A stretch of DNA of 64,000 bases from Heloderma charlesbogerti (lineage: Eukaryota; Chordata; Lepidosauria; Squamata; Helodermatidae), in NCBI GenBank assembly GCA_026122225.1, contig JANEZZ010001514.1, positions 1-64,000 of the forward strand, written 5' to 3'. The notes under the pieces were generated by a model that was given only the letters and a program-made list of their open reading frames with translations, had not been told where the DNA came from and did no database searches. Numbering within the stretch: the stretch's first letter is position 1; each line of letters opens with the position of its first letter. Positions 61 through 60,103 of this stretch are shown here, in pieces. Both the position numbers and the translations under genes were made by a program.

Positions 61-76
61 CAATTGTTGGCGGTAA

Positions 77-3000
77 AGACTTTGTTGCCAGGCAACGCTC
101 CCTGCGATATCACTGAGATAAATCCTGCCATAATGGAGTGAGCGGATACTTTCTGTCCCAGCTGTTTATGCCTTTTTCTCTCCTGCTGGTCCTGCTCTCT
201 CTCTCGGGTCGCAGCTGCTGGCACAAAACGACCTTTCCGCGTTCTGAAGGGCTCACGGGCTTCATGCTCAGTGATGAGAACAGAACAGTGTGATCTAGCC
301 AGGTTTTGACTGGGGCTCTATTGCTGGCGGTTCCATATCGGGAAGCTGCCATGAGGACAAGCAGTCACAAGGAGATGAGATGCTGTGGTGAGGGCGGGGG
401 TGGGGTGTCCGCGTGCAAAGGAGGACTGGGAAGAGGACATTTCACCAGGTGCAGATTTTCTCTTCCCTGCAGCACTGTGCCATGACACTTCCTTCTCCTG
501 CCCTCTAAGGGCTCCTTCACACGGAGCTTTTATCCTGCAATTCAAATGGCTCCTTCACGGAGGTTTGTGGGCTGTTTCCATGATGCCGCGACCCTGCCGT
601 GACCCTCCAGGGCATCTCCTGTACTAAATGCTCTTTATTCCATTTCTAAATAGATCGGAGATACTGAGCTATCACATTACCCCATTGCGCTCCGCTCGAG
701 TTCCCTCTGTGAAAAAGGGAAGAAGAGGAGCGAGACCAATGAAACATATGGAAGACTCAAATAAGGGGGAGAAGGAGGGGGAAGGGGAGGGGGAAAGGGA
801 GCGCGTGCAAAGGGAGCCCGTTGTGATCCTGCATTTAAAACGGAAGCAGAAAGGCCCCCTTTAAAGGCGGGATTTTAGGCTGGTGTAGAGATGCCCTAAA
901 GCAGTCGTTTTCAGCCTGTGATCCAGGGAACCTGATTATCTCAGGAAACGTCTCATCCCACACCAGCCCCTCACACTGGCTTCTAATAGCATCTCTGAAT
1001 TCCATCTTATGAGGAAGGCTGGATCAGCCTTCACATGGAACAGGCCCTGTTCTGTAGCAGTCCCAATGCGGTGGGGGTCTTTAACAAAGGACGTTGGTAT
1101 AACCTCCTCCCACTCAGTTTTCTGAAGGCAAGTGAAACCCTTTTTGCCTCAATGAGCCTTTGCGAACTCCGTTTGGCTCTTTGCTCGCTGCTGTGTTCCG
1201 CTATTGGTCTATTATTGTATGAGTTTATTGCAGAAGTTGGGAACCTTTTTCCCCTTGGGGGTTGCATTCCCTTGGGGGAAATAGTTTTTTTGCGGGGGGG
1301 GGGGGCATGCCGGCAGTGGGCTGGTTCCAAGTGGGCAGGGCCAAAGCATACACACGCCCCATTCACCCACACACAGCTCAGCAGTGCCAAGGGAGGGACT
1401 GCTCCTTCAGGGGCAGTCCCCGCTTTCCCTCCGTCATCAGCTGCTTCCCAATCGGCTGAGCAGTGGGGATGGGGAGATTTTGTGGGGCTTACAACTCCCC
1501 CCCTTCACCACTGCTGAACTGACTGGGGGGCTGGCTGCTCCTTTTGGCACTGCTGCCTCAAGGTGTTCCAGGGTCCTGATGAAGATGGCTTCCCTCACTT
1601 TTCCCTAATGGGATGAGGCTTCAGAGCGGGTCTAGAGCCTAGGACAGTTTTTGGAGGGGGGGGGGGTTCCCCATCCCTAGTTTATTGTTTGTTTTCAAGC
1701 TGTGAACTGCCAAGAATAAAGGTTGAATAGAGGTCTAGAAATACTTTTAATATATACAGAAACCTTGGGGTTGTTCAGACACTTATAGGGGTTCCTCAGT
1801 GAGACATGAATGGGCCCTTAATGAGAGCTGACCATCTTCTCCTCCAATGCTTGGCTGCAATTCCAAGGCAGGTGTCTGTGGCAGGTGGCAGGGGCTCCTC
1901 AATAGACAAGGTGAGGTGGAGAGATTCCCCTAGAAGTGGAAAGCCTGAAAGCCGCTGCCTTGATGGGAAGGCACAGGGCCCCTCACTGGTAAGATGGAAG
2001 CCCCAGCACCACACTGCTGAAGAAAGCCATTGGATCACCTCCAGGGCTGGGTTCTTGGCTTTTTGACCCCATGAGGTAACTCACTGTGGCCCACATCATT
2101 GCAAGGGCATCCCCCCTTGCTTTCATTCATTAGCGGACTCAATGATCACTTCCCTTAATCTATTTTTTCTTGTCCTGTGAGACCAGCATGGCTACCAAGG
2201 TTGTACGAAAGCTCATAGGATTGGGCTAAAAACCCCATGGTTCATATTCAGGCAACAACAACAACAATAAAGCCTAGACTTCTTCGTGATGTATTACAGT
2301 TCTGCAGTCATGGGGCAAGGAGGTTTTTGAGCATGGTGGACCATGCAAACATGATATTCCTTGACCTGAAGTATCATAGTCCCAAGAGGGCTGTACCACG
2401 TGTTCTTTCTAAACATGTGGATCAACTCTGACTGTTCCCCTGTTGAGCATTGTATTAGCCAGACACAGAGGCTCTCATGTACCACATCATCCCGGGAGTC
2501 ATTTTCCCCACTTAAACCAGAGTAGCACAGGATAGGCAGGTGTTGTGCTGACCTGACCTTATTGCTCACAGATGACCACACGACTACCATATGGTAATAA
2601 CCTGTACTAATGAACAATACAAGCTGGATTGGAACTGACAACCAACAGGCAAAGTAGCTCTGTTTTGTTTTTCACCCAGCGACTCCAGACCATTATATGG
2701 GAGGCAACGTAATTACTACTGTACTAAATAGGGATTGTAGCAGTGCAGGGGGCCATCTATTCCGCCCAGTGACATATCTGGTAAACTTGCTTTGTACAAC
2801 ACCCTTGCCAGTTATCCTCATTAGCGGGATAAATTAGCAGGCACCACAGGTATTGGATGCCTTCTGTCCGAGCATCAGACCTGAAATCTTCCTGTGCTGA
2901 TTCCCGTTCCACTCATCACCTAAGAGAAGATATCATCTCGGTAAAACATTCATGAGCAAGTTTAAAATAATAAAAAATTAAACAGCCTTTTGCCATAAAG

Positions 3001-3334
3001 TATGAAATATTTACTGAGCTGCTCTAAGCTAATTGCATATGGAAACTATGAAGTGCTTTGGATTATTGGCTACGTGGCAAGATCAGAAGCTGGTGGCGGC
3101 TGTCCAGTTTTCAGTTCCCTGGAATTTACATGATGGGATAGAAGAACCAAGCCAGATTTCTTTGGGTGAGGAAGAGAGGGGGCTGTCTTCAAATTAGCGA
3201 TGGGCCTTGCACAATTTAGATCCCAATTCAGATCTTGTCAGATTTGGACACTTCTTTCCCTGCTTCTCCCTCCTGAGCTTCCTGAACGATTAATTATTCT
3301 TTGCACTCTCTTGAGAAGAAGTCGGGGTGATGAG
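77..3334. other. No recognisable gene or repeat (left arm)
   Basis: Short ORFs only, none with a recognisable domain. Contains G-runs near 1297 and 1656 and a CAA/ACA run near 2248-2266. Mirrored at 56834-60090. Confidence 0.5.
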
Positions 3335-3967
3335 TAAGGATGTACGAAAGTCACTTACCTTTTACAAAATTTGATTCGTGGGGGGGGGAGGCGCTCCATC
3401 CCTCCCCCCGAAATTCTGGCGGGGGGGAGGCGCCCCGTCCCTCCCTCCACGAATCCTGGCCGGCCGGGTCTGCAAATGGTGGCAGCCGTAGCCGCTGCCG
3501 TTTGCGTCCCTGCAGTCAGCCGTGATAGGCTACATAAATGTTTACGTAGCCTATCACAGATAAGTTAAAAAAAAAACCCCACATGTACGCAAAGGGCAGC
3601 GCCCATGGGCGCCGCCATTTGCATACGCGTGAGTTTTGTTTTGTTTTTAACTCAGCCATCACGGCTGACTACGTAAACATTTACGTAGCCACCGCCATTT
3701 GCGTACGCTTTTTTTTTTTTAAGGCAGACGTGATAGGCTACGTAAGTCTTTACGTAGCCTATCACGTCTTGTAAAAAAAAAAAACCCCGACAAGACTGCA
3801 AATGGCAGCGGCAGCCAGTTGGAAGACCAGCCACCGCAGCCACTGCCGCCGCCCGGAAGATCCACCCCAGGTAAGTCTCATCCCGGGGGGGATCCACGGG
3901 GGGGCGGGGGGGCAGGCCGTTCTGCCACAGATTTCGAGATCCATGGAGGAATTCTCTGCCATCCCTA
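3335..3967 (+). mobile_element. hAT-like hairpin-ladder element, copy a (left arm)
   Basis: Begins TAAGGATGTACGAAAGTCAC (A-type end) and ends at CATCCCTA (B-type end). Between them lie a G/C-rich hairpin, palindromes with TAGGCTACGTAA cores (3521-3560, 3729-3770) and CAAATGG palindromes (around 3590-3625). Flanks gtgatgag and agcttagc do not match, so this copy has lost its target duplication or is a composite. The B end lacks the usual GGCCGAATGC stem. Outward GGTAAG occurs near both ends. Confidence 0.8.
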
Positions 3968-5490
3968 AGCTTAGCCCCATTTTGCCCCATTCCAGCACTT
4001 TGCCCCAGAGTTATTGCTTCCAATACCCCCTTTCTCCCTTTCTCCTTCTCCCTGCTTGCAATGAGAAGCTCCCATAAACCAAAAGAACCTTACTGTGATA
4101 AAGCGATAAAGTGGAGAAGGGACTTTACATAACAATGGAGAAATGACTTTACATCAGAGAAACCACAAAACATCAAAGAAGCACAACATTGCAATAGTGA
4201 TTTAAGAGAGCAACGGAGAAGTGAAAGAGCGCTTTAGGTTGAGTTACTAAAGTTAGCCTTTAACCCTTTCAATGCAGGGGAATGAGATTTATTTATTACT
4301 TCCGAGTAAACATGCACAGATGAATGAGTGTCCCCACTACTGCGGTAATGTGAAGGGTCGCTGCTGCGCTCCTGGGGATTTTCTCAATGGGAAAAGTTAC
4401 TTCCACTGGGGAAGCAAGAGGGAGTGGGGCATCCCACCCCCTTGACCACATCACTGCCATGTCACAGAGCCGTGCCCAAGATTTAATGTGTGTGTGGGGG
4501 GGCATGGCACACAGTGGTAAAACTACCAGGGAGTCGCTTTCAGTAAAAAAAAAGTCAGAGTAAAAGGAGTTTCAGAAAATGTGGCTTTTCAAGACGGAAG
4601 CAGCTGGTTGGCAGTGGATGGGTGACGATGTCCTCTGTGGCGAAGGAACTCAAACTGCTCTAACTTTGCACTCAATCGCTCATGAAGACAGTCCCCAGGT
4701 TGTCAACTGGAAATGGGAGGCAAGTAGGGGCACCCCTCTGCAGCTGGACCTGTCCCACAGCTGCCAGTCACTGAATCTAAAATATAGAAATACATAAATA
4801 AAAATGGCACCGGTAAAGGCTATTGAGAAAAATGCAGGCTGTGTATTCATTTTAGCCCTAGAGCAGAGAAAACGCAAAGCTGGCCAAATGTCAGGTGGTG
4901 TGCAGGCAGTCCTTTATTCCTTGATGCACTGGAAAGAATTCATCATCCTGCACTATTCACATGCATCACAAGCAAAGCCCTTCCAGAGTCCAGACTGCGT
5001 TTTTTCCATGCATGCGCCTTGCAGTCCCCACCCTTCTGGCATTTTCAAAGAAGCCCAGAGAAGCCCCCTCCTTTCCATGCCTGGGACCTGTCCTCTGGCA
5101 ACGTGCCCCCTGTGGCCATCGGGACGAGCCCCCTCCCTGCCCAAGCCCAATGTGACCTCTTGGCTCTCAGCTCTGTGTCAGATTTTTATCATAACTTTGC
5201 ATTCAGTATAAAGGGGTGGAGAAGGAGGACATTCAGAGTAAAAGCAACAACTCTGAAACGTGAGCCTCATCCTTGCATTCCAGCAGGGCAGACTACTGCT
5301 GAGAGGGCTTGCAGCATCCCCACAGTTCAGCATCTCCTAAGCTACCACCATTCCCTCTTGCCACAGCATTCCATGGAGTCAGCCTTTTGTTTTTCAGGCC
5401 AAACCAGGGGGTGTGATGTGGTCAGGCTCTCAGTCAGAGAAAAGCTCCTGATTTGCAAAAAGAAGAGATTATTCACTATTTCAAATCTCT
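3968..5490. other. No gene; one short interspersed-repeat fragment
   Basis: The only recognisable item is at 4294-4316 (ACTTCCGAGTAAACATGCAC). It resembles a repeat that, from memory, is widespread in squamates. ORFs up to 158 codons (5019-5495) show no family resemblance and run into the CR1 tail. Mirrored at 54678-56200. Confidence 0.4.
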
Positions 5491-5649
5491 TATAGAATCA
5501 TAGAATAGTAGGGTTGGAAGGGGCCTACAAGGCCATCGAGTCCAACCCCCTGCTCAATGCAGTAATCCAGGTCAGAGCATCCCTGACAGATGGCTGTCCA
5601 GCCTCACCTTGAACGCCTCCAGTGTGGGAGAGCCCACCACCTCCCTAGG

Positions 5650-7710
5650 TCATGGGTTCCATTGTCGTATTGCTCTGACAGTCAGGAAATTTTTCCTGAT
5701 GTTCAGCCGGAATCTGGCTTCCTGTAACTTGAGCCCATGACTCCGTGTCCTGCACTCTGGGATGACTGAGAAGAGATCCTGGCCTTCCTCTCTGTGACAG
5801 CCTTTCAAGTACTTGAAGAGCGCTATCCTATTTCCCCTCAGTCTTCTCTTCTCAAGGCTAAACATGCCCAGTTCTTTCAGTCTCTCTTCATAGGGCTTTG
5901 TTTCCAGTCCCCTGATCATCTTTGTTGCCCTCCTCTGAACCCTCTCCAGTTTGTCTGCATCCTTCTTAAAGTGCGGTGCCCAGAACTGGACACAGTACTC
6001 CAGATGAGGCCTAACCAGTGCTGAGTAGAGGGGAACTACAACTTCCTGGGATTTGGAAGTTATGCTTCTATGAATGCAGCCCAAAATAGCATTTGCCTTT
6101 TCTGCAGCCCCATCACATTGTTGGCTCATATTCAGCTTGTGATCAACAACAATTCCAAGATCCTTCCCACTTGTCGTGTTGTTGAGCCATGTATCCCCCA
6201 TCTTGTAACTGTGCCTTTGGTTTCTTTTTCCTAGGTGCAGAACTTGGCATTGATCCCTATTAAATGTCATTCTGTTGTTTTCTGCCCAGCGCTCCAGTCT
6301 AGCCAGATCACTTTGAATTTTGTTTCTGCCTTCCAAAGTATTAGCTATCCTGCCCAATTTTGTGTCATCTGCAAATCTGATCAGCATTCCCTGCACCTCC
6401 TCCTCCAAGTCATACATAAAAATGTTGAAGAGCACTGGGCCCAGGACTGAGCCCTGCGGTACCCCACTCGTTACCTCTCCCCAGTTTGAGAATGTCCCAT
6501 TGATAAGCACTCTTTGAGTCTGATTCTATAGCCAACTGTGGATCCACCGGATCGTTGTTTCATCTAGCCCACTTTGAGCTAGTTTGCTCATCAGGAGATC
6601 ATGGGGCACTTTGTCGAAAGCTTTGCTGAAGTCGAGGTATATGATGTCTACAGCATTCCCATGGTCCACAAGGGAGGTTACTTGATCAAAAAATGAGATC
6701 AGATTCGTTTGGCAGGACTTGTTCTTGACAAATCCATGTGGGCTTCGAGTAATCACTGCATTGTTTTCAAGGTGCTTCCAGATGGATTGCTTTATCATCT
6801 GCTCCAGAATTTTCTCAGGGATTGATGTGAGACTGACTGGTCTGTAGTTCCCAGGTTCCTCCTTTTTACCCTTTTTGAAGATGGGAACAACATTAGCCCT
6901 CCTCCAGTCATCTGGCACTTCCCCCGTCCTACATGATTTCTCAAAGAGAATAGACAGTGGTTGTGAGAGTTCTTCTGGCAGTTCCTTTATTACCCTAGAA
7001 GGATGCAGTTCATCTGGCCCTGGAGATTTGAACTCATTCAAAGTAATTAAGTGTTCCTTGACCATATGCCTGTCGATCTCAAGCTGCAATCCTGCCCCTT
7101 CAGCCTGTACTTCACCTTTGCCAGGGGGTGAAGTACCTTTGCCATAGACCCTCTTTTGGGAGAAGACTGAGCCAAAGTAGGAATTGAGCACCTCTGCCTT
7201 TTCTTTGTCATCTGTTATCGTTTTGCCATCCTTATTTAATAGCTGAACCACCATTTCTTTCCTCTGTCTTTTACTTTGCACGTAGCTAAAGAAAGCCTTT
7301 TTGTTGCTCTTAGCATCCCACGCTAACCTCAGCTCATTCTCAGCTTTAGCCTTCCTGACACCATCCCTGCAATTCTGTGCTACCTGCCTGTACTCTTCCT
7401 TTGTTACCTGGTCTTCTTTCCACTGCCTATATGTGTCCTTTTTTGTTTTCAGGTCATCTCTAAGCGTTTTGTGAAGCCACATTGGCTTCTTCTGTTGTCT
7501 TCCACCTTTTCTTCTTGTTGGAATGGTTTGTAATTGTGCCTTGAGAATTTCCTTTTTTAAAAGCTCCCACCCATCTTGGACTCCTTTTCTTGTTAGCGTC
7601 GCTTGCCATAGGACCTTTCTGATAATTGTTATGAGTTTATTGAAATCAGCTTTCCTAAAATCCAGGGTACGTGTTTGACTACACTCGGCTTTTGCTTCCC
7701 TTAGAACCAA
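5650..7710 (-). pseudogene. CR1 ORF2 reverse transcriptase, one stop codon (left arm)
   Basis: Two consecutive open stretches, 6526-7710 (394 codons) and 5650-6510 (286 codons), form one reverse-transcriptase reading frame interrupted by a TAG at 6526-6528. Motifs are as given for 52458-54518, of which this is the mirror copy with an identical translation. Confidence 0.95.
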
Positions 7711-8318
7711 GAACTGAAGTACAACATGGTCGCTTTCCCCCAGAGTTCCTGTAACTGCTACTTGTCTCCCATGAAATATCGGGGAAATTGAAGTCCCCCA
7801 TTACTACTACATCATGCTTCCTTAAAATATTAGCTATTTGCTTTTCAAAAGTTTCATCCTTGTCTTCTCCTTGATTGGGTGGCCTGTAGTAGACTCCGAC
7901 CATCAGGTTCCTTTTATTCCTTTGTTCCATTTATTTTGATCCAGATGCTCTCGATGGGGCTACCAAGCTCCTCCTCCTGTATTTCTGTGCAGAGATATGT
8001 ATTTTTCACATACAGTGCAACCCCACCTCCCTTTCTGTTCCTCCTGTTCTTTTTGAACAAGTTATATCCTTCCATTGCTGTATTCCAGCCATGAGAGTCA
8101 TCCCACCAAGTCTCAGTTATACCTATCAGGTCATAATTTCCCTCCTGTATTAAGAGTCCAAGTTCGTTCTGTTTGTTTCCCATGCTCTGGGCATTAGTGT
8201 ATAGACCTCGAGGACCATGTGCTTCATAGTCTGGCTTCCTTCCTACATGTGTCTGAAGACTATTTTGGGGCGCTATCAGAGCTGTTCTCTCCGTTGCGGT
8301 GCATGCGCCTTCATGCAT
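7679..8318 (-). pseudogene. CR1 ORF2 endonuclease domain, frameshifted (left arm)
   Basis: Mirror of 51850-52489. Two overlapping frames (7914-8318 and 7679-7930) carry the apurinic-endonuclease-like domain, with ITETWW and GDFNFPD motifs, split by a frameshift. Confidence 0.9.
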
Positions 8319-8541
8319 TGTTACCCCAACTTTATGTTTCCCTTCTGCGTAGGATTCAGTTTAATTCACATTGATTTCCCACATAAGAAGACCCACTACT
8401 TCCCTAGTATTTCTCCCCCAATGCACAATGCCTTGTTGCTCTTGGAGCCCAGTGTGCTTCTCTGCAACATAGCAAGACTTGCACAGCCCAGAGACAGCTT
8501 TAACGTGGAGCAGACTGAAACAGCCTGATCCTGGTGGTGGA

Positions 8542-8970
8542 TAGGGATGTCAGAGAATTCCGCCACGGATTTCAGTGAGGCCGAATGCACTGACATTCGG
8601 CTCCCCAAAATCCATGGCGGAACAGCCTGCCACCCCTCTGCCCCCCTGCGGATTCCCCCCAGGATGAAGCTTACCTGGGGCGGATGTTCTGGACGGCGGC
8701 GGCTTCGGCGGCGGTGGTAGCGGCAGTGGCTGGTCTTTCGACCGGCTGCCACAGCAAGCCAAGGGGAAAAAAAACGGCGTATGCAAATGGTGGCGGCTAT
8801 GACGGCCGCCATTTGCGTTCCCTAATTTTTGCTGTTTTATCCTACGTAACTATTTACGTAGGCAATTACGGCAAAAAAAAAAAAGGGAACCACAAATAGC
8901 GTAGTGGGTGCTATTTGCGTTGTTTCCCCCCCCCCCGCCATTTTATCCTACGTAAATATTTACATAGGCT
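8542..8970 (+). mobile_element. hAT-like hairpin-ladder element, copy b, 3'-truncated (left arm)
   Basis: Starts TAGGGATGTCAGAGAATTCC (B-type end). It has the subterminal stem with CCGAATGCACTG, CTTACCTGGGGCGGATG, and CAAATGG and TACGTAAATA palindromes. It ends abruptly inside a TACGTAAATATTTACATAGG palindrome without an A-type end. The (AAAT)n/(GACT)n tract follows. Confidence 0.85.
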
Positions 8971-9043
8971 TTTATTTGTATTTTATGTTGTTATTTGTAT
9001 TGCATGCCATCTAGAGTGGCTGGGTAGCCGGCCAGATAGGTGG

Positions 9044-9104
9044 CTAATAAATAAATAAATGACTGAATGACTGACTGACTGACTGACTGACTGACTGACT
9101 GAAT
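9044..9104 (+). repeat. AATA/GACT microsatellite (left arm)
   Basis: TAAATAAATAAAT followed by 8 uninterrupted GACT units. The mirror tract at 51060-51124 has 9 units, the largest length difference between the arms (4 bases). Confidence 0.95.
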
Positions 9105-9627
9105 AACTGAGGAGGGAAGGAACATATGAATGATCTGCCACACTGTAATACATTGAGATGGTGATGCTCCCAGCTGATAATGTGAAAAGCAGGTCAGTGG
9201 TCTCATTCTACAGCCACATACAATTGGCTTGTTCCCATTTCTAATGATGAATACATGTGAACTGCCATTGGTACACTGGCATCACCAGGGGCTGCTGGCC
9301 AGAAGCGGGTACTGCTGCTAATGACTCGGCAGCTGCCAGGTGGAGCCAAGGAGGGTTTACCTGGCCCTCTAAAATCATAGCCTTTGGCCTGCCTGTGTCA
9401 GAGTTGGTCTCAGCAACTTGTCTTCAGTGCAAAGGTCAAAGCTGTTCCCAACCAGTTGTTCTCATCATGGCGTATCAAGTGGTGTACCGTTTGTCTCTCA
9501 TCGGTCCAGTGGCTTCCTTGGTTTGCCTCTCCCATCTGCCTGTCAGGTGATGATGGCCTCTGTTTCCCTGTCTCAGCAATGATTGCGCCTGCAGCCACCA
9601 TCAACCCATATGCAGTGGGCAAAGAGC

Positions 9628-9800
9628 AGCATCGGAAGCCGCCTTATCCTGAGTCGGAGCCCCCTTGGTCCATCCAGCCCAGTACTGCAGGCATCGGCTG
9701 GAGCAGCGGCTGTCCAGGGTGTCCAGCAGGGCTCCTTCCCAGCCCTGTCTGGAGGCGCCAGGGATCAAACCTGGGACCTTCTGCATGCAAGCCCCCATCT
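9628..9800 (-). mobile_element. tRNA-derived SINE, 5'-truncated (left arm)
   Basis: Mirror of 50364-50536; see there for the promoter box and tail. Confidence 0.7.
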
Positions 9801-10578
9801 GAAAAATGATAACAACAGAAATAGTGGAGAATAAATAATAAACTGTAATAAATGCAGCAGGGGATGGGGGGAATCCACAGAAATTGGAAGTCTGGCACAT
9901 TGCCAGAAATGAAATTCAAATTTCAGCTCAAATGCAACTCTTGCTCTTGAAATTCAATAGCAAGGGGCCCTTTTTAAAATAAAAAAGCTACAGCTGCTAT
10001 CTTCATAATGCAGTTTTAGGTGATACTTTTAAGTGTCAAGTTGACAAATTCAGGTTTTTTAAACATTCTGGGTTGATCCAACAGCCATCTATTACTGGGA
10101 AATTCTGACCCCCTTAATTAATTTGAGCTATATTTATAAGGTGCATAAAAGCTATTTTCTTAATGAATAATAACATCTAAGGCTCTTGGTTTCACGTCCC
10201 CATTTCCTTTCTCCCAGTACTGAATTCTACTCACATCTCACCCTCCTCCACATGTCCAGATTCCGACTGCTATCTTAGTCAGCAAAGAGAAACTGATACC
10301 ATCCATTAGCTGATCCCCTCTTCTGCAGTTGTCTCCCCTCCAACAAATTTGCACACACCAAGGGAAGATGACATTCCACAGCCAAGCACATATGGAAGTC
10401 ATCTGTCATGACAAATATGTTTTGTTTATTTGTTTGTTTGACAAAGTTCCATATGCAAAGTTAACATCAGTGTCTGACTTCTTTGGCTGAAAAGCTAAAG
10501 ATAAGCTAAAATGGCTAGTGGCCATAGAAATCTCAGAGTGAGGAACAGCAAGGCAAAATAATTGGTTTTTTTTTTTTT
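9801..10578. other. No gene or repeat recognised (left arm)
   Basis: AT-rich single-copy-like sequence with no long ORF. Contains a TTTG/TTTA run near 10420-10440 and a T-run at 10565-10579 that borders the truncated hAT-c. Mirrored at 49586-50363. Confidence 0.4.
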
Positions 10579-10773
10579 TAAGTCAGACGTGATAGGCTAC
10601 GTAAAGATTTACGTAGCCTATCACGGCTGACTACAGGGATGCAAACGGCGGCAGCTCTGCAGAATCCCCGCAGAGCGGAGCCGGCCGGTGAGGATTCCGG
10701 GGGGAGGGACGGAGCGCCTCCCCCCCCAGCGGAACCCGGCAGAGCCAGGTAAGGCCAATTTCGTACATCCCTA
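10579..10773 (+). mobile_element. hAT-like element, copy c, truncated with one rung (left arm)
   Basis: Keeps a single TAGGCTACGTAAAGA-type palindrome (10583-10626), the G/C-rich A-side hairpin, GCCAGGTAAGG (outward splice-donor-like) and the A-type end TCGTACATCCCTA at 10761-10773. The B half is missing; the break is at a T-run. It has inserted into the L2 endonuclease remnant to its right. Confidence 0.85.
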
Positions 10774-11147
10774 CTGCACACGCACATCAGAGACCACCTC
10801 AAGCACTTTGGCCAGGGAGTCTGTCGTGCAGCGGGGTGGGCAGTACACAAGCAGAATCCCCAGACTGCCCTTCGGGCCCAACCTCCAGTTCATGCAACCA
10901 GCACCCTGTTCTCCCGGAGGGGGAGTCTGGTGAGGACCAAGGTCTCCTGGTATGTAACAGCCACTCCCCCTCCCTGACCCCCAGCCCTTGGCAGCTGCGC
11001 CTATGAAAATCCAGCTGGGCAAACGGCTGCAGGAGTGGAAGCAGTGGCCTCATCCAGCCTGGTCTCCATAGTACATGCCCGGTCCGCACCCTCAACCAGG
11101 ATCATGTCATGGATTAGAGATGTTTTATGGGCAACGGACCTGGCATT
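10774..11147 (-). pseudogene. L2-like LINE endonuclease remnant (left arm)
   Basis: Mirror of 49017-49390, described there. Confidence 0.75.
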
Positions 11148-12599
11148 TCACAGCAGCAGAGCAAGGCCAGAGGATGGAGTCACGCATCCCCCAGCTATCC
11201 TTCGGCTCTGGACAGGCCCGGAACAGGGGACAGACATTACGCATCTTTCCCCTGCTCCCGTTACCTGGCAAGGCCTGCCCCTGGCACTCCGCCAGTGTCT
11301 GCAGCCAGCCTCAGTATGTTCTGGCCTCCAGAACTCCCCCCACTGCCTCCGCCAGGTGGACACATGCCTCCCTCGCTTCCACCTATCGGGTGGGCACCCC
11401 TCCCCTAAAACCACAAACACACCCCCGAAGCCCACCACCCATCAACAATTTTTAAAAACTACAACCCAGGCTCTCTGCTCCCTTGTGGCTCCCCTAAGTG
11501 GCTCACCCGAGTTATCAGCCTACACAGGTGGCTCTATCCCACCCCTATTTGGATGGCGCTTATCTTTCTCCACCCCTGACTCTCACTCGCGGGGGGGCTC
11601 CACACACCACAAACTCCCCCCACCCAGGCTCTCGCCCCAGGTGAGGGTCACAGGCCTGTCTCTCACACAGGAGCCTGGCAAGCTTCCTACTGCCAGACCA
11701 GCAGAGGGGCGCTCTCGCCCATGTGGCAACGGAAGGGGGCAACCCCCTTTGGTGTCGCCCTTCCGGGGTTGACCCTGCTGTGGCAGGGCTGGTTCTTTAT
11801 GAGCCTCTTCCCAGAGCTGCTCCGCTCACAGGTGAGGCTCTGGCCCACTCCAGCCACCACACAGTCCTCAGCTGCAAACCCTTCCTAGCAAGCAGCAGAG
11901 GAAAACAGTCCAGCAGAGCCAGCGATCCAGCAAAAAGGCAGGCAAGAAGGCACTCTTGCTAGCAGGTGACGGCAGATGAGGCAGAGGGCTTGGTGTTTCT
12001 TGTGGCCCCGTCAGCCCCCCTCTGCCAGTTGTTCTTCTGTGCTGCTCCCAGAGAGGCACTCTCCCAGTTGAGAGTTCATCTGCGCACACGTGCTCTTCAA
12101 GTGATCATTCGCATGTGTGAATCAGCCATCTCAGATTAAATACTACAGGCAGAGCTTGCATACCATCTCACATCTCTTTGCACTCAATAGTTTTCCAGGG
12201 TGGCTGTTAACACCTTTAAATGCAAGCTGCTGAGTGATAAGATACAGAGTGCCCTAAGTTCACCTGTGTCTTAATATTGTGGTTGCTCCGAAGAGATTGG
12301 GCTGGTGCTTTCAGCCTGATATGTTCCAATAATTCCAATCCTAGATGAACCTAGTTTGAGCTGCAGCTTCTGTGGTTGCAACAAACCTCTCTTGAAACTT
12401 CTTCTAACCCAGTTTGCCACTTGCCCAACTCTGCAACTTTATCAGGATTTTCAGAATATTAAACACAAGTTAAATAATATTCTTTCACAGTAGGTGGAAT
12501 TTGCCTTTACCTGTGTACAAGTATACTGGGAAAATGGCGAGTGTCCAGGTAAGATTCTGATCATCATCTTAAGCAGCAAAAGCCTGGACATTTTATTTC
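11148..12599. other. No clear gene; GC-rich stretch upstream of the L2 remnant (left arm)
   Basis: The first part (to about 11900) is GC-rich and lies 5' of the L2 endonuclease remnant on the minus strand, so it may be L2 5' untranslated sequence; this is inference. The 245-codon plus-strand ORF at 11035-11772 overlaps the antisense of the L2 coding region and is not a gene. Mirrored at 47565-49016. Confidence 0.4.
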
Positions 12600-13172
12600 A
12601 GCTATTAAAGATTAGGGTAATACGATATAGACCTCTACCAACCAAATATATAGATTTACAATTTTTAAAGTTTTATTCTGACTTGTATAGTACAGGTAGT
12701 GAAATACTGGAGCAGGACATGGATGTTTCTTTTTTTTTTTCTCTCATGTTGATCTTCCATGTCTAGATTCTTCACAACAGCAGTTTCTTCCACCTTCTTT
12801 GCTTATACAGGAAATTATGAAAGCAATTAGGAGTATGAATACTGGGAAATCACCTGGTCTGGACAGGCTTCCAATTGAATGGTATAAAACATTTTCCAAC
12901 CTGTTTGTTCCAAACCTTCATCGTCTTTATAATCATGTCTTTGAATCAGGCTCCCTTTCTTTTTTGTCAAATGATGCTTATATTACCGTGATTCCTAAGC
13001 TTGGCAAGGATCACACTTATTGCACTAACTTTCGGCCTATCTCGTTGACTAATGTACATATTAAAATATTAACTGCTATTTTTGGCTGATAGACTGCAAG
13101 AAGTTATTACAACACTGGTTCAAGCAGATCAGGTGGGATTTATTAAACATGGATGGGGGTTGATAATCTTAG

Positions 13173-14395: not shown

Positions 14396-14441
14396 ACCAT
14401 AGAATCATAGAATAGTAGGGTTGGAAGGGGCCTACAAGGGC
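14396..14441 (-). mobile_element. CR1 3'-tail fragment (left arm)
   Basis: Starts CATAGAATCATAGAATAGTA and continues GGGTTGGAAGGGGCC, the reverse complement of the CR1 3' terminus, inserted in the L1 remnant. Only about 46 bases. Confidence 0.8.
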
Positions 14442-45722: not shown

Positions 45723-45768
45723 GCCCTTGTAGGCCCCTTCCAACCCTACTATTCTATGATTCTATGGT
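45723..45768 (+). mobile_element. CR1 3'-tail fragment (right arm)
   Basis: Mirror of 14396-14441. Confidence 0.8.
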
Positions 45769-49016: not shown

Positions 49017-49390
49017 AATGCCAGGTCCGTTGCCCATAAAACATCTCTAATCCATGACATGATCCTGGTTGAGGGTGCGGACCGGGCATGTACTATGGAG
49101 ACCAGGCTGGATGAGGCCACTGCTTCCACTCCTGCAGCCGTTTGCCCAGCTGGATTTTCATAGGCGCAGCTGCCAAGGGCTGGGGGTCAGGGAGGGGGAG
49201 TGGCTGTTACATACCAGGAGACCTTGGTCCTCACCAGACTCCCCCTCCGGGAGAACAGGGTGCTGGTTGCATGAACTGGAGGTTGGGCCCGAAGGGCAGT
49301 CTGGGGATTCTGCTTGTGTACTGCCCACCCCGCTGCACGACAGACTCCCTGGCCAAAGTGCTTGAGGTGGTCTCTGATGTGCGTGTGCAG
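49017..49390 (+). pseudogene. L2-like LINE endonuclease remnant
   Basis: N-terminal part of an L2-type apurinic endonuclease. In one frame it reads NARSVAHKTSLIHDMIL, then ADRACTMETRLDEATAS (family form METWLDE), then CPAGFS, a stop at about 49161, and GGGVAVTYQETLVLTRLPL. It shifts frame near 49270 to RLGPKGSLGILLVYCPPR and DSLAKVLEVVSDV. The GDFN catalytic segment that should follow is missing because hAT-c begins at 49391. One stop and at least one frameshift: not functional. Confidence 0.78.
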
Positions 49391-49585
49391 TAGGGATGTA
49401 CGAAATTGGCCTTACCTGGCTCTGCCGGGTTCCGCTGGGGGGGGAGGCGCTCCGTCCCTCCCCCCGGAATCCTCACCGGCCGGCTCCGCTCTGCGGGGAT
49501 TCTGCAGAGCTGCCGCCGTTTGCATCCCTGTAGTCAGCCGTGATAGGCTACGTAAATCTTTACGTAGCCTATCACGTCTGACTTA
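49391..49585 (-). mobile_element. hAT-like element copy c, truncated (right arm)
   Basis: Mirror of 10579-10773. Confidence 0.85.
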
Positions 49586-50363
49586 AAAAAAAAAAAAACC
49601 AATTATTTTGCCTTGCTGTTCCTCACTCTGAGATTTCTATGGCCACTAGCCATTTTAGCTTATCTTTAGCTTTTCAGCCAAAGAAGTCAGACACTGATGT
49701 TAACTTTGCATATGGAACTTTGTCAAACAAACAAATAAACAAAACATATTTGTCATGACAGATGACTTCCATATGTGCTTGGCTGTGGAATGTCATCTTC
49801 CCTTGGTGTGTGCAAATTTGTTGGAGGGGAGACAACTGCAGAAGAGGGGATCAGCTAATGGATGGTATCAGTTTCTCTTTGCTGACTAAGATAGCAGTCG
49901 GAATCTGGACATGTGGAGGAGGGTGAGATGTGAGTAGAATTCAGTACTGGGAGAAAGGAAATGGGGACGTGAAACCAAGAGCCTTAGATGTTATTATTCA
50001 TTAAGAAAATAGCTTTTATGCACCTTATAAATATAGCTCAAATTAATTAAGGGGGTCAGAATTTCCCAGTAATAGATGGCTGTTGGATCAACCCAGAATG
50101 TTTAAAAAACCTGAATTTGTCAACTTGACACTTAAAAGTATCACCTAAAACTGCATTATGAAGATAGCAGCTGTAGCTTTTTTATTTTAAAAAGGGCCCC
50201 TTGCTATTGAATTTCAAGAGCAAGAGTTGCATTTGAGCTGAAATTTGAATTTCATTTCTGGCAATGTGCCAGACTTCCAATTTCTGTGGATTCCCCCCAT
50301 CCCCTGCTGCATTTATTACAGTTTATTATTTATTCTCCACTATTTCTGTTGTTATCATTTTTC
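49586..50363. other. No gene or repeat recognised (right arm)
   Basis: Mirror of 9801-10578. Confidence 0.4.
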
Positions 50364-50536
50364 AGATGGGGGCTTGCATGCAGAAGGTCCCAGGTTTGAT
50401 CCCTGGCGCCTCCAGACAGGGCTGGGAAGGAGCCCTGCTGGACACCCTGGACAGCCGCTGCTCCAGCCGATGCCTGCAGTACTGGGCTGGATGGACCAAG
50501 GGGGCTCCGACTCAGGATAAGGCGGCTTCCGATGCT
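50364..50536 (+). mobile_element. tRNA-derived SINE, 5'-truncated
   Basis: Contains a B-box-like GGTTTGATCCCTGG at 50392-50405 preceded by GCTTGCATGCAGAAGGTCCC. This is the arrangement of the 3' half of a tRNA-derived polymerase III promoter. The A-box half is absent: sequence before 50364 is unrelated. The body runs GGGCTGGGAAGGAGCCCTGC, CTGGATGGACCAAGGGG, and CTCAGGATAAGGCGGCTTCC, which resembles a common reptile SINE (ACTCAGTATAAGGCAGCTTCC, from memory). Not a tRNA gene. Confidence 0.72.
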
Positions 50537-51059
50537 GCTCTTTGCCCACTGCATATGGGTTGATGGTGGCTGCAGGCGCAATCATTGCTGAGACAGGGAA
50601 ACAGAGGCCATCATCACCTGACAGGCAGATGGGAGAGGCAAACCAAGGAAGCCACTGGACCGATGAGAGACAAACGGTACACCACTTGATACGCCATGAT
50701 GAGAACAACTGGTTGGGAACAGCTTTGACCTTTGCACTGAAGACAAGTTGCTGAGACCAACTCTGACACAGGCAGGCCAAAGGCTATGATTTTAGAGGGC
50801 CAGGTAAACCCTCCTTGGCTCCACCTGGCAGCTGCCGAGTCATTAGCAGCAGTACCCGCTTCTGGCCAGCAGCCCCTGGTGATGCCAGTGTACCAATGGC
50901 AGTTCACATGTATTCATCATTAGAAATGGGAACAAGCCAATTGTATGTGGCTGTAGAATGAGACCACTGACCTGCTTTTCACATTATCAGCTGGGAGCAT
51001 CACCATCTCAATGTATTACAGTGTGGCAGATCATTCATATGTTCCTTCCCTCCTCAGTT

Positions 51060-51124
51060 ATTCAGTCAGTCAGTCAGTCAGTCAGTCAGTCAGTCAGTCA
51101 TTCAGTCATTTATTTATTTATTAG
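51060..51124 (+). repeat. AGTC/ATTT microsatellite (right arm)
   Basis: Nine AGTC units followed by ATTTATTTATTTATT; one unit more than the mirror tract at 9044-9104. Confidence 0.95.
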
Positions 51125-51197
51125 CCACCTATCTGGCCGGCTACCCAGCCACTCTAGATGGCATGCAATACAAATAACAACATAAAATACAAATAAA

Positions 51198-51626
51198 AGC
51201 CTATGTAAATATTTACGTAGGATAAAATGGCGGGGGGGGGGGAAACAACGCAAATAGCACCCACTACGCTATTTGTGGTTCCCTTTTTTTTTTTTGCCGT
51301 AATTGCCTACGTAAATAGTTACGTAGGATAAAACAGCAAAAATTAGGGAACGCAAATGGCGGCCGTCATAGCCGCCACCATTTGCATACGCCGTTTTTTT
51401 TCCCCTTGGCTTGCTGTGGCAGCCGGTCGAAAGACCAGCCACTGCCGCTACCACCGCCGCCGAAGCCGCCGCCGTCCAGAACATCCGCCCCAGGTAAGCT
51501 TCATCCTGGGGGGAATCCGCAGGGGGGCAGAGGGGTGGCAGGCTGTTCCGCCATGGATTTTGGGGAGCCGAATGTCAGTGCATTCGGCCTCACTGAAATC
51601 CGTGGCGGAATTCTCTGACATCCCTA
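51198..51626 (-). mobile_element. hAT-like element copy b, truncated (right arm)
   Basis: Mirror of 8542-8970. Confidence 0.85.
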
Positions 51627-51849
51627 TCCACCACCAGGATCAGGCTGTTTCAGTCTGCTCCACGTTAAAGCTGTCTCTGGGCTGTGCAAGTCTTGCTATG
51701 TTGCAGAGAAGCACACTGGGCTCCAAGAGCAACAAGGCATTGTGCATTGGGGGAGAAATACTAGGGAAGTAGTGGGTCTTCTTATGTGGGAAATCAATGT
51801 GAATTAAACTGAATCCTACGCAGAAGGGAAACATAAAGTTGGGGTAACA

Positions 51850-52489
51850 ATGCATGAAGGCGCATGCACCGCAACGGAGAGAACAGCTCTGATAGCGCCC
51901 CAAAATAGTCTTCAGACACATGTAGGAAGGAAGCCAGACTATGAAGCACATGGTCCTCGAGGTCTATACACTAATGCCCAGAGCATGGGAAACAAACAGA
52001 ACGAACTTGGACTCTTAATACAGGAGGGAAATTATGACCTGATAGGTATAACTGAGACTTGGTGGGATGACTCTCATGGCTGGAATACAGCAATGGAAGG
52101 ATATAACTTGTTCAAAAAGAACAGGAGGAACAGAAAGGGAGGTGGGGTTGCACTGTATGTGAAAAATACATATCTCTGCACAGAAATACAGGAGGAGGAG
52201 CTTGGTAGCCCCATCGAGAGCATCTGGATCAAAATAAATGGAACAAAGGAATAAAAGGAACCTGATGGTCGGAGTCTACTACAGGCCACCCAATCAAGGA
52301 GAAGACAAGGATGAAACTTTTGAAAAGCAAATAGCTAATATTTTAAGGAAGCATGATGTAGTAGTAATGGGGGACTTCAATTTCCCCGATATTTCATGGG
52401 AGACAAGTAGCAGTTACAGGAACTCTGGGGGAAAGCGACCATGTTGTACTTCAGTTCTTGGTTCTAAGGGAAGCAAAAGCCGAGTGTAG
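51850..52489 (+). pseudogene. CR1 ORF2 endonuclease domain, frameshifted
   Basis: First frame 51850-52254: YTNAQSMGNKQNELGLL, YDLIGITETWWDDSH, then GGGVALYVKN. Second frame 52238-52489: VGVYYRPPNQGEDKDETFEK, then VVVMGDFNFPDISWE. These match the DNA-nicking endonuclease used for target-primed reverse transcription. The two frames overlap at 52238-52254, marking a frameshift. After ISWETSSS (about 52405) the rest of the domain is deleted and the frame shifts again into LGESDHVVLQFLVLREAKAE, which continues in 52458-54518. The C-terminal catalytic residues of the domain are therefore lost. Confidence 0.92.
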
Positions 52490-54518
52490 TCAAACACGTA
52501 CCCTGGATTTTAGGAAAGCTGATTTCAATAAACTCATAACAATTATCAGAAAGGTCCTATGGCAAGCGACGCTAACAAGAAAAGGAGTCCAAGATGGGTG
52601 GGAGCTTTTAAAAAAGGAAATTCTCAAGGCACAATTACAAACCATTCCAACAAGAAGAAAAGGTGGAAGACAACAGAAGAAGCCAATGTGGCTTCACAAA
52701 ACGCTTAGAGATGACCTGAAAACAAAAAAGGACACATATAGGCAGTGGAAAGAAGACCAGGTAACAAAGGAAGAGTACAGGCAGGTAGCACAGAATTGCA
52801 GGGATGGTGTCAGGAAGGCTAAAGCTGAGAATGAGCTGAGGTTAGCGTGGGATGCTAAGAGCAACAAAAAGGCTTTCTTTAGCTACGTGCAAAGTAAAAG
52901 ACAGAGGAAAGAAATGGTGGTTCAGCTATTAAATAAGGATGGCAAAACGATAACAGATGACAAAGAAAAGGCAGAGGTGCTCAATTCCTACTTTGGCTCA
53001 GTCTTCTCCCAAAAGAGGGTCTATGGCAAAGGTACTTCACCCCCTGGCAAAGGTGAAGTACAGGCTGAAGGGGCAGGATTGCAGCTTGAGATCGACAGGC
53101 ATATGGTCAAGGAACACTTAATTACTTTGAATGAGTTCAAATCTCCAGGGCCAGATGAACTGCATCCTTCTAGGGTAATAAAGGAACTGCCAGAAGAACT
53201 CTCACAACCACTGTCTATTCTCTTTGAGAAATCATGTAGGACGGGGGAAGTGCCAGATGACTGGAGGAGGGCTAATGTTGTTCCCATCTTCAAAAAGGGT
53301 AAAAAGGAGGAACCTGGGAACTACAGACCAGTCAGTCTCACATCAATCCCTGAGAAAATTCTGGAGCAGATGATAAAGCAATCCATCTGGAAGCACCTTG
53401 AAAACAATGCAGTGATTACTCGAAGCCCACATGGATTTGTCAAGAACAAGTCCTGCCAAACGAATCTGATCTCATTTTTTGATCAAGTAACCTCCCTTGT
53501 GGACCATGGGAATGCTGTAGACATCATATACCTCGACTTCAGCAAAGCTTTCGACAAAGTGCCCCATGATCTCCTGATGAGCAAACTAGCTCAAAGTGGG
53601 CTAGATGAAACAACGATCCGGTGGATCCACAGTTGGCTATAGAATCAGACTCAAAGAGTGCTTATCAATGGGACATTCTCAAACTGGGGAGAGGTAACGA
53701 GTGGGGTACCGCAGGGCTCAGTCCTGGGCCCAGTGCTCTTCAACATTTTTATGTATGACTTGGAGGAGGAGGTGCAGGGAATGCTGATCAGATTTGCAGA
53801 TGACACAAAATTGGGCAGGATAGCTAATACTTTGGAAGGCAGAAACAAAATTCAAAGTGATCTGGCTAGACTGGAGCGCTGGGCAGAAAACAACAGAATG
53901 ACATTTAATAGGGATCAATGCCAAGTTCTGCACCTAGGAAAAAGAAACCAAAGGCACAGTTACAAGATGGGGGATACATGGCTCAACAACACGACAAGTG
54001 GGAAGGATCTTGGAATTGTTGTTGATCACAAGCTGAATATGAGCCAACAATGTGATGGGGCTGCAGAAAAGGCAAATGCTATTTTGGGCTGCATTCATAG
54101 AAGCATAACTTCCAAATCCCAGGAAGTTGTAGTTCCCCTCTACTCAGCACTGGTTAGGCCTCATCTGGAGTACTGTGTCCAGTTCTGGGCACCGCACTTT
54201 AAGAAGGATGCAGACAAACTGGAGAGGGTTCAGAGGAGGGCAACAAAGATGATCAGGGGACTGGAAACAAAGCCCTATGAAGAGAGACTGAAAGAACTGG
54301 GCATGTTTAGCCTTGAGAAGAGAAGACTGAGGGGAAATAGGATAGCGCTCTTCAAGTACTTGAAAGGCTGTCACAGAGAGGAAGGCCAGGATCTCTTCTC
54401 AGTCATCCCAGAGTGCAGGACACGGAGTCATGGGCTCAAGTTACAGGAAGCCAGATTCCGGCTGAACATCAGGAAAAATTTCCTGACTGTCAGAGCAATA
54501 CGACAATGGAACCCATGA
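52458..54518 (+). pseudogene. CR1 ORF2 reverse transcriptase, one stop codon
   Basis: Nearly intact RT of 394 plus 286 codons. Motifs: SPGPDELHPSRVIKEL (about 53145), FKKGKKEEPGNYRPVSL (53290-53340), motif A IIYLDFSKAFDKVPHDLL (residues 356-373 of the first part), GVPQGSVLGPVLFN (residues 16-29 of the second part), the catalytic box FADD (residues 46-49) intact, [39 protein letters not shown], and a natural end RQWNP-stop. A single TAG at 53640-53642 interrupts it after HSWL; the related copy at 44001-45427 has CAG (Gln) there, so one C-to-T change explains it. No other break was seen in the RT. Confidence 0.96.
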
Positions 54519-54677
54519 CCTAGGGAGGTGGTGGGCTCTCCCACACTGGAGGCGTTCAAGGTGAGGCTGGACAGCCATCTGTCAGGGATGCTCTGACCTG
54601 GATTACTGCATTGAGCAGGGGGTTGGACTCGATGGCCTTGTAGGCCCCTTCCAACCCTACTATTCTATGATTCTATA

Positions 54678-56200
54678 AGAGATTTGAAATAGTGAATAAT
54701 CTCTTCTTTTTGCAAATCAGGAGCTTTTCTCTGACTGAGAGCCTGACCACATCACACCCCCTGGTTTGGCCTGAAAAACAAAAGGCTGACTCCATGGAAT
54801 GCTGTGGCAAGAGGGAATGGTGGTAGCTTAGGAGATGCTGAACTGTGGGGATGCTGCAAGCCCTCTCAGCAGTAGTCTGCCCTGCTGGAATGCAAGGATG
54901 AGGCTCACGTTTCAGAGTTGTTGCTTTTACTCTGAATGTCCTCCTTCTCCACCCCTTTATACTGAATGCAAAGTTATGATAAAAATCTGACACAGAGCTG
55001 AGAGCCAAGAGGTCACATTGGGCTTGGGCAGGGAGGGGGCTCGTCCCGATGGCCACAGGGGGCACGTTGCCAGAGGACAGGTCCCAGGCATGGAAAGGAG
55101 GGGGCTTCTCTGGGCTTCTTTGAAAATGCCAGAAGGGTGGGGACTGCAAGGCGCATGCATGGAAAAAACGCAGTCTGGACTCTGGAAGGGCTTTGCTTGT
55201 GATGCATGTGAATAGTGCAGGATGATGAATTCTTTCCAGTGCATCAAGGAATAAAGGACTGCCTGCACACCACCTGACATTTGGCCAGCTTTGCGTTTTC
55301 TCTGCTCTAGGGCTAAAATGAATACACAGCCTGCATTTTTCTCAATAGCCTTTACCGGTGCCATTTTTATTTATGTATTTCTATATTTTAGATTCAGTGA
55401 CTGGCAGCTGTGGGACAGGTCCAGCTGCAGAGGGGTGCCCCTACTTGCCTCCCATTTCCAGTTGACAACCTGGGGACTGTCTTCATGAGCGATTGAGTGC
55501 AAAGTTAGAGCAGTTTGAGTTCCTTCGCCACAGAGGACATCGTCACCCATCCACTGCCAACCAGCTGCTTCCGTCTTGAAAAGCCACATTTTCTGAAACT
55601 CCTTTTACTCTGACTTTTTTTTTACTGAAAGCGACTCCCTGGTAGTTTTACCACTGTGTGCCATGCCCCCCCACACACACATTAAATCTTGGGCACGGCT
55701 CTGTGACATGGCAGTGATGTGGTCAAGGGGGTGGGATGCCCCACTCCCTCTTGCTTCCCCAGTGGAAGTAACTTTTCCCATTGAGAAAATCCCCAGGAGC
55801 GCAGCAGCGACCCTTCACATTACCGCAGTAGTGGGGACACTCATTCATCTGTGCATGTTTACTCGGAAGTAATAAATAAATCTCATTCCCCTGCATTGAA
55901 AGGGTTAAAGGCTAACTTTAGTAACTCAACCTAAAGCGCTCTTTCACTTCTCCGTTGCTCTCTTAAATCACTATTGCAATGTTGTGCTTCTTTGATGTTT
56001 TGTGGTTTCTCTGATGTAAAGTCATTTCTCCATTGTTATGTAAAGTCCCTTCTCCACTTTATCGCTTTATCACAGTAAGGTTCTTTTGGTTTATGGGAGC
56101 TTCTCATTGCAAGCAGGGAGAAGGAGAAAGGGAGAAAGGGGGTATTGGAAGCAATAACTCTGGGGCAAAGTGCTGGAATGGGGCAAAATGGGGCTAAGCT
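54678..56200. other. No gene; one short repeat fragment (right arm)
   Basis: Mirror of 3968-5490. Squamate-type repeat fragment near 55852-55874. Confidence 0.4.
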
Positions 56201-56833
56201 TAGGGATGGCAGAGAATTCCTCCATGGATCTCGAAATCTGTGGCAGAACGGCCTGCCCCCCCGCCCCCCCGTGGATCCCCCCCGGGATGAGACTTACCTG
56301 GGGTGGATCTTCCGGGCGGCGGCAGTGGCTGCGGTGGCTGGTCTTCCAACTGGCTGCCGCTGCCATTTGCAGTCTTGTCGGGGTTTTTTTTTTTTACAAG
56401 ACGTGATAGGCTACGTAAAGACTTACGTAGCCTATCACGTCTGCCTTAAAAAAAAAAAAGCGTACGCAAATGGCGGTGGCTACGTAAATGTTTACGTAGT
56501 CAGCCGTGATGGCTGAGTTAAAAACAAAACAAAACTCACGCGTATGCAAATGGCGGCGCCCATGGGCGCTGCCCTTTGCGTACATGTGGGGTTTTTTTTT
56601 TAACTTATCTGTGATAGGCTACGTAAACATTTATGTAGCCTATCACGGCTGACTGCAGGGACGCAAACGGCAGCGGCTACGGCTGCCACCATTTGCAGAC
56701 CCGGCCGGCCAGGATTCGTGGAGGGAGGGACGGGGCGCCTCCCCCCCGCCAGAATTTCGGGGGGAGGGATGGAGCGCCTCCCCCCCCCACGAATCAAATT
56801 TTGTAAAAGGTAAGTGACTTTCGTACATCCTTA
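56201..56833 (-). mobile_element. hAT-like element copy a (right arm)
   Basis: Mirror of 3335-3967. Confidence 0.8.
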
Positions 56834-59800
56834 CTCATCACCCCGACTTCTTCTCAAGAGAGTGCAAAGAATAATTAATCGTTCAGGAAGCTCAGGAGGG
56901 AGAAGCAGGGAAAGAAGTGTCCAAATCTGACAAGATCTGAATTGGGATCTAAATTGTGCAAGGCCCATCGCTAATTTGAAGACAGCCCCCTCTCTTCCTC
57001 ACCCAAAGAAATCTGGCTTGGTTCTTCTATCCCATCATGTAAATTCCAGGGAACTGAAAACTGGACAGCCGCCACCAGCTTCTGATCTTGCCACGTAGCC
57101 AATAATCCAAAGCACTTCATAGTTTCCATATGCAATTAGCTTAGAGCAGCTCAGTAAATATTTCATACTTTATGGCAAAAGGCTGTTTAATTTTTTATTA
57201 TTTTAAACTTGCTCATGAATGTTTTACCGAGATGATATCTTCTCTTAGGTGATGAGTGGAACGGGAATCAGCACAGGAAGATTTCAGGTCTGATGCTCGG
57301 ACAGAAGGCATCCAATACCTGTGGTGCCTGCTAATTTATCCCGCTAATGAGGATAACTGGCAAGGGTGTTGTACAAAGCAAGTTTACCAGATATGTCACT
57401 GGGCGGAATAGATGGCCCCCTGCACTGCTACAATCCCTATTTAGTACAGTAGTAATTACGTTGCCTCCCATATAATGGTCTGGAGTCGCTGGGTGAAAAA
57501 CAAAACAGAGCTACTTTGCCTGTTGGTTGTCAGTTCCAATCCAGCTTGTATTGTTCATTAGTACAGGTTATTACCATATGGTAGTCGTGTGGTCATCTGT
57601 GAGCAATAAGGTCAGGTCAGCACAACACCTGCCTATCCTGTGCTACTCTGGTTTAAGTGGGGAAAATGACTCCCGGGATGATGTGGTACATGAGAGCCTC
57701 TGTGTCTGGCTAATACAATGCTCAACAGGGGAACAGTCAGAGTTGATCCACATGTTTAGAAAGAACACGTGGTACAGCCCTCTTGGGACTATGATACTTC
57801 AGGTCAAGGAATATCATGTTTGCATGGTCCACCATGCTCAAAAACCTCCTTGCCCCATGACTGCAGAACTGTAATACATCACGAAGAAGTCTAGGCTTTA
57901 TTGTTGTTGTTGTTGCCTGAATATGAACCATGGGGTTTTTAGCCCAATCCTATGAGCTTTCGTACAACCTTGGTAGCCATGCTGGTCTCACAGGACAAGA
58001 AAAAATAGATTAAGGGAAGTGATCATTGAGTCCGCTAATGAATGAAAGCAAGGGGGGATGCCCTTGCAATGATGTGGGCCACAGTGAGTTACCTCATGGG
58101 GTCAAAAAGCCAAGAACCCAGCCCTGGAGGTGATCCAATGGCTTTCTTCAGCAGTGTGGTGCTGGGGCTTCCATCTTACCAGTGAGGGGCCCTGTGCCTT
58201 CCCATCAAGGCAGCGGCTTTCAGGCTTTCCACTTCTAGGGGAATCTCTCCACCTCACCTTGTCTATTGAGGAGCCCCTGCCACCTGCCACAGACACCTGC
58301 CTTGGAATTGCAGCCAAGCATTGGAGGAGAAGATGGTCAGCTCTCATTAAGGGCCCATTCATGTCTCACTGAGGAACCCCTATAAGTGTCTGAACAACCC
58401 CAAGGTTTCTGTATATATTAAAAGTATTTCTAGACCTCTATTCAACCTTTATTCTTGGCAGTTCACAGCTTGAAAACAAACAATAAACTAGGGATGGGGA
58501 ACCCCCCCCCCTCCAAAAACTGTCCTAGGCTCTAGACCCGCTCTGAAGCCTCATCCCATTAGGGAAAAGTGAGGGAAGCCATCTTCATCAGGACCCTGGA
58601 ACACCTTGAGGCAGCAGTGCCAAAAGGAGCAGCCAGCCCCCCAGTCAGTTCAGCAGTGGTGAAGGGGGGGAGTTGTAAGCCCCACAAAATCTCCCCATCC
58701 CCACTGCTCAGCCGATTGGGAAGCAGCTGATGACGGAGGGAAAGCGGGGACTGCCCCTGAAGGAGCAGTCCCTCCCTTGGCACTGCTGAGCTGTGTGTGG
58801 GTGAATGGGGCGTGTGTATGCTTTGGCCCTGCCCACTTGGAACCAGCCCACTGCCGGCATGCCCCCCCCCCCCGCAAAAAAACTATTTCCCCCAAGGGAA
58901 TGCAACCCCCAAGGGGAAAAAGGTTCCCAACTTCTGCAATAAACTCATACAATAATAGACCAATAGCGGAACACAGCAGCGAGCAAAGAGCCAAACGGAG
59001 TTCGCAAAGGCTCATTGAGGCAAAAAGGGTTTCACTTGCCTTCAGAAAACTGAGTGGGAGGAGGTTATACCAACGTCCTTTGTTAAAGACCCCCACCGCA
59101 TTGGGACTGCTACAGAACAGGGCCTGTTCCATGTGAAGGCTGATCCAGCCTTCCTCATAAGATGGAATTCAGAGATGCTATTAGAAGCCAGTGTGAGGGG
59201 CTGGTGTGGGATGAGACGTTTCCTGAGATAATCAGGTTCCCTGGATCACAGGCTGAAAACGACTGCTTTAGGGCATCTCTACACCAGCCTAAAATCCCGC
59301 CTTTAAAGGGGGCCTTTCTGCTTCCGTTTTAAATGCAGGATCACAACGGGCTCCCTTTGCACGCGCTCCCTTTCCCCCTCCCCTTCCCCCTCCTTCTCCC
59401 CCTTATTTGAGTCTTCCATATGTTTCATTGGTCTCGCTCCTCTTCTTCCCTTTTTCACAGAGGGAACTCGAGCGGAACGCAATGGGGTAATGTGATAGCT
59501 CAGTATCTCCGATCTATTTAGAAATGGAATAAAGAGCATTTAGTACAGGAGATGCCCTGGAGGGTCACGGCAGGGTCGCGGCATCATGGAAACAGCCCAC
59601 AAACCTCCGTGAAGGAGCCATTTGAATTGCAGGATAAAAGCTCCGTGTGAAGGAGCCCTTAGAGGGCAGGAGAAGGAAGTGTCATGGCACAGTGCTGCAG
59701 GGAAGAGAAAATCTGCACCTGGTGAAATGTCCTCTTCCCAGTCCTCCTTTGCACGCGGACACCCCACCCCCGCCCTCACCACAGCATCTCATCTCCTTGT

Positions 59801-60090
59801 GACTGCTTGTCCTCATGGCAGCTTCCCGATATGGAACCGCCAGCAATAGAGCCCCAGTCAAAACCTGGCTAGATCACACTGTTCTGTTCTCATCACTGAG
59901 CATGAAGCCCGTGAGCCCTTCAGAACGCGGAAAGGTCGTTTTGTGCCAGCAGCTGCGACCCGAGAGAGAGAGCAGGACCAGCAGGAGAGAAAAAGGCATA
60001 AACAGCTGGGACAGAAAGTATCCGCTCACTCCATTATGGCAGGATTTATCTCAGTGATATCGCAGGGAGCGTTGCCTGGCAACAAAGTCT
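56834..60090. other. No recognisable gene or repeat (right arm)
   Basis: Mirror of 77-3334. ORFs up to 160 codons (58650-59132) have no recognisable domain. Confidence 0.5.
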
Positions 60091-60103
60091 TACCCAACAA
60101 TTG

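Follow-up and report, generated by a model that had tools for sequence, protein, structure and literature searches.

The window analysed here, a stretch of 64,000 nucleotides of contig JANEZZ010001514.1 from the Heloderma charlesbogerti assembly GCA_026122225.1, contains a near-perfect palindrome of about 60 kb whose two arms are practically contiguous. Judging from the sequence, we consider this palindrome to be most probably a fold-back chimera, that is, one molecule read out along one strand and back along the other, and we assign this reading a probability of about 0.87. That the palindrome is an artefact of one kind or another, produced either by such a molecule or by the assembly graph, can be held with high confidence.

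Arms and turn of the palindrome

When the window is compared with itself (megablast), positions 61-60103 align with 60103-61 of the minus strand at 99.92% identity over 60,053 columns. Alignment of one arm to the other delimits strict arms at 76-29999 and 30164-60091, which differ by a single substitution (690/59477) and by three length changes, all in simple repeats: a G run differs by 1 bp (1656/58511), a TGAC repeat by 4 bp (9068/51100), and at a TA repeat the difference is again 1 bp (16702/43462). The palindrome is present in the sequence, and both alignments bear out the original prediction, which had placed it at 61..60103; a chance origin is ruled out by the length and identity of the arms. 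One substitution in 29.9 kb is as expected from the two strands of one molecule. Counting the symmetry from base 61, the axis lies near 30082, and the sequence continues rightwards past the arm.

The size of the spacer depends on its definition. It amounts to 164 bp (30000-30163) between the strict arms, to 39 bases (C16, TGTTTCAC, G7CG7) between the two inner copies of TTAA, and to a few unpaired bases when the whole centre is folded, which makes the structure practically spacer-free. The 37 bases predicted originally lie within this range, although that exact figure was not reproduced. A 191-bp piece spanning the centre shares 86% identity with its own reverse complement, and a 196-base central piece folds at -95.4 kcal/mol, a value reached by none of 200 shuffles (mean -30.2).

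The arms agree almost perfectly save at the turn and at the outer end. Between 76 and 30060 we counted 14 difference events, 10 of which fall within the 61 bp adjoining the turn (30000-30060), a clustering with P ~1e-24 if events are taken to be independent and uniformly distributed. Two further small indels lie at the outer tip of the left arm (71-77). Gene conversion offers no reason for such a pattern, whereas polishing would explain it, since reads have no secure position at a fold or a contig end.

The same two places carry the two longest homopolymers of the window, all four bases counted: C17 (3-19), between the window edge and the left arm, and C16 (30063-30078), at the turn, each directly after AA. 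The third-longest homopolymer has 14 bases, an A run at 49585 together with its mirror. As the left arm begins 61 bases from the edge of the window, this edge is best explained as the edge of the contig, and base 1 is probably the contig start. We considered bases 20-60 as a degraded continuation of the flank of the right arm and rejected this candidate (1224 of 2000 shuffles score at least as high as observed). The flank itself, 3.9 kb at 60104-64000, has as its longest match in the rest of the window an alignment of 239 columns at 81%.

The turn also sits at one end of a transposon-like element that has several copies in the window. Five aligned copies, one of them the facing end at 32008-32021 read in the left-arm mirror, start with TA(G/A)GGATGTAC(G/A)AAAGTC, followed in four of the five by CACTTACC. 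At the turn this homology stops at CTTAGC (30135), which is matched to 32002, so that the remaining 19 bases of the element (32003-32021) are without an equivalent there; the facing orientation of the ends at 30135 and 32008-32021 suggests that they belong to one element. Where the transposon end is expected there stands a 106-bp core (30029-30134), which may yet be a diverged copy of the element or genuine flank. Compared with 30201-64000 on either strand, its two non-homopolymer halves give scores no better than shuffles.

Artefact or real duplication

We favour a fold-back because the differences between arms are confined to the turn and the outer end, poly-C runs occur at both, the left flank is minimal and the transposon end is missing. 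A long read or an amplified molecule would have followed one strand to a fragment end near 30080, turned there and returned, probably as a single molecule, along the complementary strand. The assembler would have extended the contig end with this folded sequence, giving a contig that opens with about 30 kb of copied complement, and polishing would have equalised the arms except where reads were unplaceable. If so, about 30 kb of the contig is falsely duplicated and apt to mislead copy-number, repeat and structural-variant work, and trimming is warranted. A fold-back chimera was also the simplest reading offered by the original prediction, and it gains support from the four features above and from a published class of artefacts of the same shape; the other possibilities named there (a W/Y palindrome, an amplicon, a hairpin chromosome end) gained none from the sequence.

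Nanopore foldbacks, missed PacBio adapters and whole-genome amplification can all give such a shape. According to Heinz, Meyerson and Li (2026, PMC12870357), foldbacks make up 0.55-0.6% of nanopore reads of genomic DNA. A foldback is recognised by an opposite-strand segment that lies at most 200 bp from the end of the first segment; between our strict arms this distance is 164 bp. The palindrome resembles the foldback reads described there in that the second half repeats the first, at the same place, as its reverse complement, with a turn shorter than 200 bp and near-perfect symmetry, but it stands in an assembled and polished contig, not in a read. For PacBio, PMC6218980 gives 0.5% palindromic reads in a control, ascribed to false positives and to adapters that were missed or absent, and holds amplification responsible for numerous inverted duplications of a published gorilla Y assembly. 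Those duplications are likewise assembly features derived from palindromic molecules; unlike them, ours comes with no sign of amplified DNA.

Several observations weigh against a fold-back. Each of the 11 mismatched pairs in the turn sets pyrimidine against pyrimidine on the plus strand (8 T-T, 2 C-C and 1 C-T), where random single substitutions would predict one third, and a fold-back artefact provides no explanation for this. According to PMC12870357, HiFi data from genomic DNA are virtually without foldbacks, and in eight inspected foldback reads the raw signal showed no notable difference at the breakpoint, so that noise at the turn does not characterise foldbacks in general. The homopolymers enriched between foldback segments, as reported in the same source for K562 transcriptome samples, are most commonly poly-A and AC repeats, not the poly-C found at our turn. 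Nor was an adapter found at the turn: six adapter sequences were scored at the centre on both strands (12 tests) and compared with pieces of 191 bp taken from 30200-63800; no test was significant (smallest tail fraction 0.068), and a retained adapter was rejected on this count. The SMRTbell adapter gives an 11-letter gapped match to the centre (tail fraction 0.148), and against the first 80 bases every one of the six has a tail fraction of at least 0.53. Then, the criteria stated in PMC11168930 for palindromes of ape sex chromosomes are arms of at least 8 kb, identity of at least 98%, a spacer of at most 500 kb, repeats below 80% and location on a sex chromosome, and the arm length, identity and spacer seen here all lie within these bounds. 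Finally, the centre may be a pre-existing inverted repeat that primed a fold-back in the cell, as described for yeast in PMC10766183.

Is the palindrome, then, a real inverted duplication? A broken end could fold at a short inverted repeat, become hairpin-capped and be replicated (in the manner of breakage-fusion-bridge cycles or of origin-dependent inverted-repeat amplification, ODIRA), or the structure could be a young sex-chromosome palindrome. Near-identical arms are compatible with great youth or gene conversion, the pyrimidine-only mismatches look non-random, and the imperfect 164-bp hairpin at the centre would be the priming inverted repeat. An imperfect inverted repeat does occur at the junction and may have been there before the rearrangement. 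As in the yeast ODIRA events described in PMC10766183, the loop is short and the junction bears an inverted repeat; unlike those events, ours shows no sign of amplification, and nothing indicates that the junction exists in more than one molecule. With the ape palindromes, as characterised in PMC11168930, ours shares arms longer than 8 kb and more than 98% identical, but it has almost no spacer, no left flank and no gene domain that we could find. A real duplication also sits poorly with a left flank of only 60 bases and with arms that agree least at the turn and the outer end, where the longest poly-C runs stand. According to PMC7999016, palindromes whose long arms are similar and whose spacer is short or absent belong to the less stable ones and carry a higher risk to genome stability, which makes a real palindrome less likely. 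On balance we regard a real young duplication as improbable. A palindrome of 60 kb that is very young, lacks a spacer and lies at the end of a squamate chromosome or fragment, having arisen through fold-back and hairpin capping next to a DNA transposon and been tolerated by the sampled cells, is quite improbable; if true, it would be an extreme test of how far vertebrate cells tolerate spacer-free palindromes.

Two other mechanisms may be considered. Without any chimeric read, the assembler could have run out of coverage at a transposon rich in G and in hairpins and gone back by the reverse-complement path. The near identity of the arms and a turn at the end of a repeat rich in G runs and hairpins would both be in keeping with this, but such a walk re-uses existing sequence and by itself supplies neither the 106-bp core nor the outer C17, and we think it unlikely. 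A hairpin made by a transposase would equally place the turn at a transposon end. However, the last 19 bases of the element are missing rather than preserved, 106 bp of unrelated sequence separate the copies, and the element looks hAT-like, whereas hAT transposases form their hairpin on the flanking DNA and leave the element end without one. With the element end not preserved at the turn, we rejected this mechanism, whose probability we consider negligible.

Other features of the window

The features discussed above are listed in Table 1.

Table 1. Positions of the palindrome, its turn and the adjoining sequences in the window
Feature	Position	Strand	Remarks and basis
Left arm	61..29999	+	Strict from 76; two small indels in 71-77
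Right arm	30164..60103	-	Strict to 60091; self-alignment and arm-to-arm alignment
Imperfect hairpin around the turn	30000..30163	.	11 mismatched pairs and one 1-bp indel
Core with no counterpart in the transposon copies of the window, 106 bp	30029..30134	.	AA+C16, TGTTTCAC, G7CG7+TT; shuffle comparison
Transposon-like element	30135..32021	+	Outer 19 bases missing at the turn; second end at 32008-32021; homology among copies
C-rich sequence outside the left arm	1..60	.	AA + C17 at 3-19; 58% C; longest homopolymer; probable contig start
Flank past the right arm, outside the palindrome	60104..64000	+	Short repeat matches only elsewhere in the window

Within the hairpin, at 30044-30053, the left arm reads T at every site where the right arm, once reverse-complemented, reads A.

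Copies or ends of the transposon-like family occur at 30135-32021, 35775-36499, 42440-43254, 61333-62945 and 63862-64000. The ends read TAGGG(A/G)TGTACGAA, with TCTGACATCCCTA in addition in some copies, and the family is rich in G runs and hairpins. By eye, flanking repeats of 8 bp (7 of 8 positions matching) can be recognised at the copies 35775-36499 and 42440-43254, and none such at 61333 and 62945, two ends that face each other. A tandem array at 23908-24189 consists of three copies of a 95-bp unit that is a hairpin in its own right, and its mirror lies in the other arm at 35978-36261.

Coding content was searched in 24 frame translations covering 30083-64000, minus about 60 bp near 59720-59780, and in eight open reading frames, one of which lies in the left arm, an arm otherwise covered through its mirror, the right arm. 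No host gene domain was detected in these Pfam scans. Seven of the 24 translations matched, all to reverse transcriptases or endonucleases of retrotransposon type (three of the seven below the Pfam cut-off), and three of the eight open reading frames matched RVT_1, one of them just below the cut-off. Rfam gave no match at the gathering threshold and the tRNA scan found none. By sequence comparison, the product of the open stretch 52368-53642 is a CR1-like reverse transcriptase, which marks the DNA as squamate-like and extends in a single frame over 52368-54518 as two neighbouring open stretches with a stop between them. The protein comparison found 5290 proteins among 7990 scored candidates; among the 120 best, which were listed, the first four places go to Podarcis muralis, at 58% identity along the full query, ahead of Anolis carolinensis (55% over 86%), a crane and Salvator merianae (54%), with numerous birds and turtles after these.
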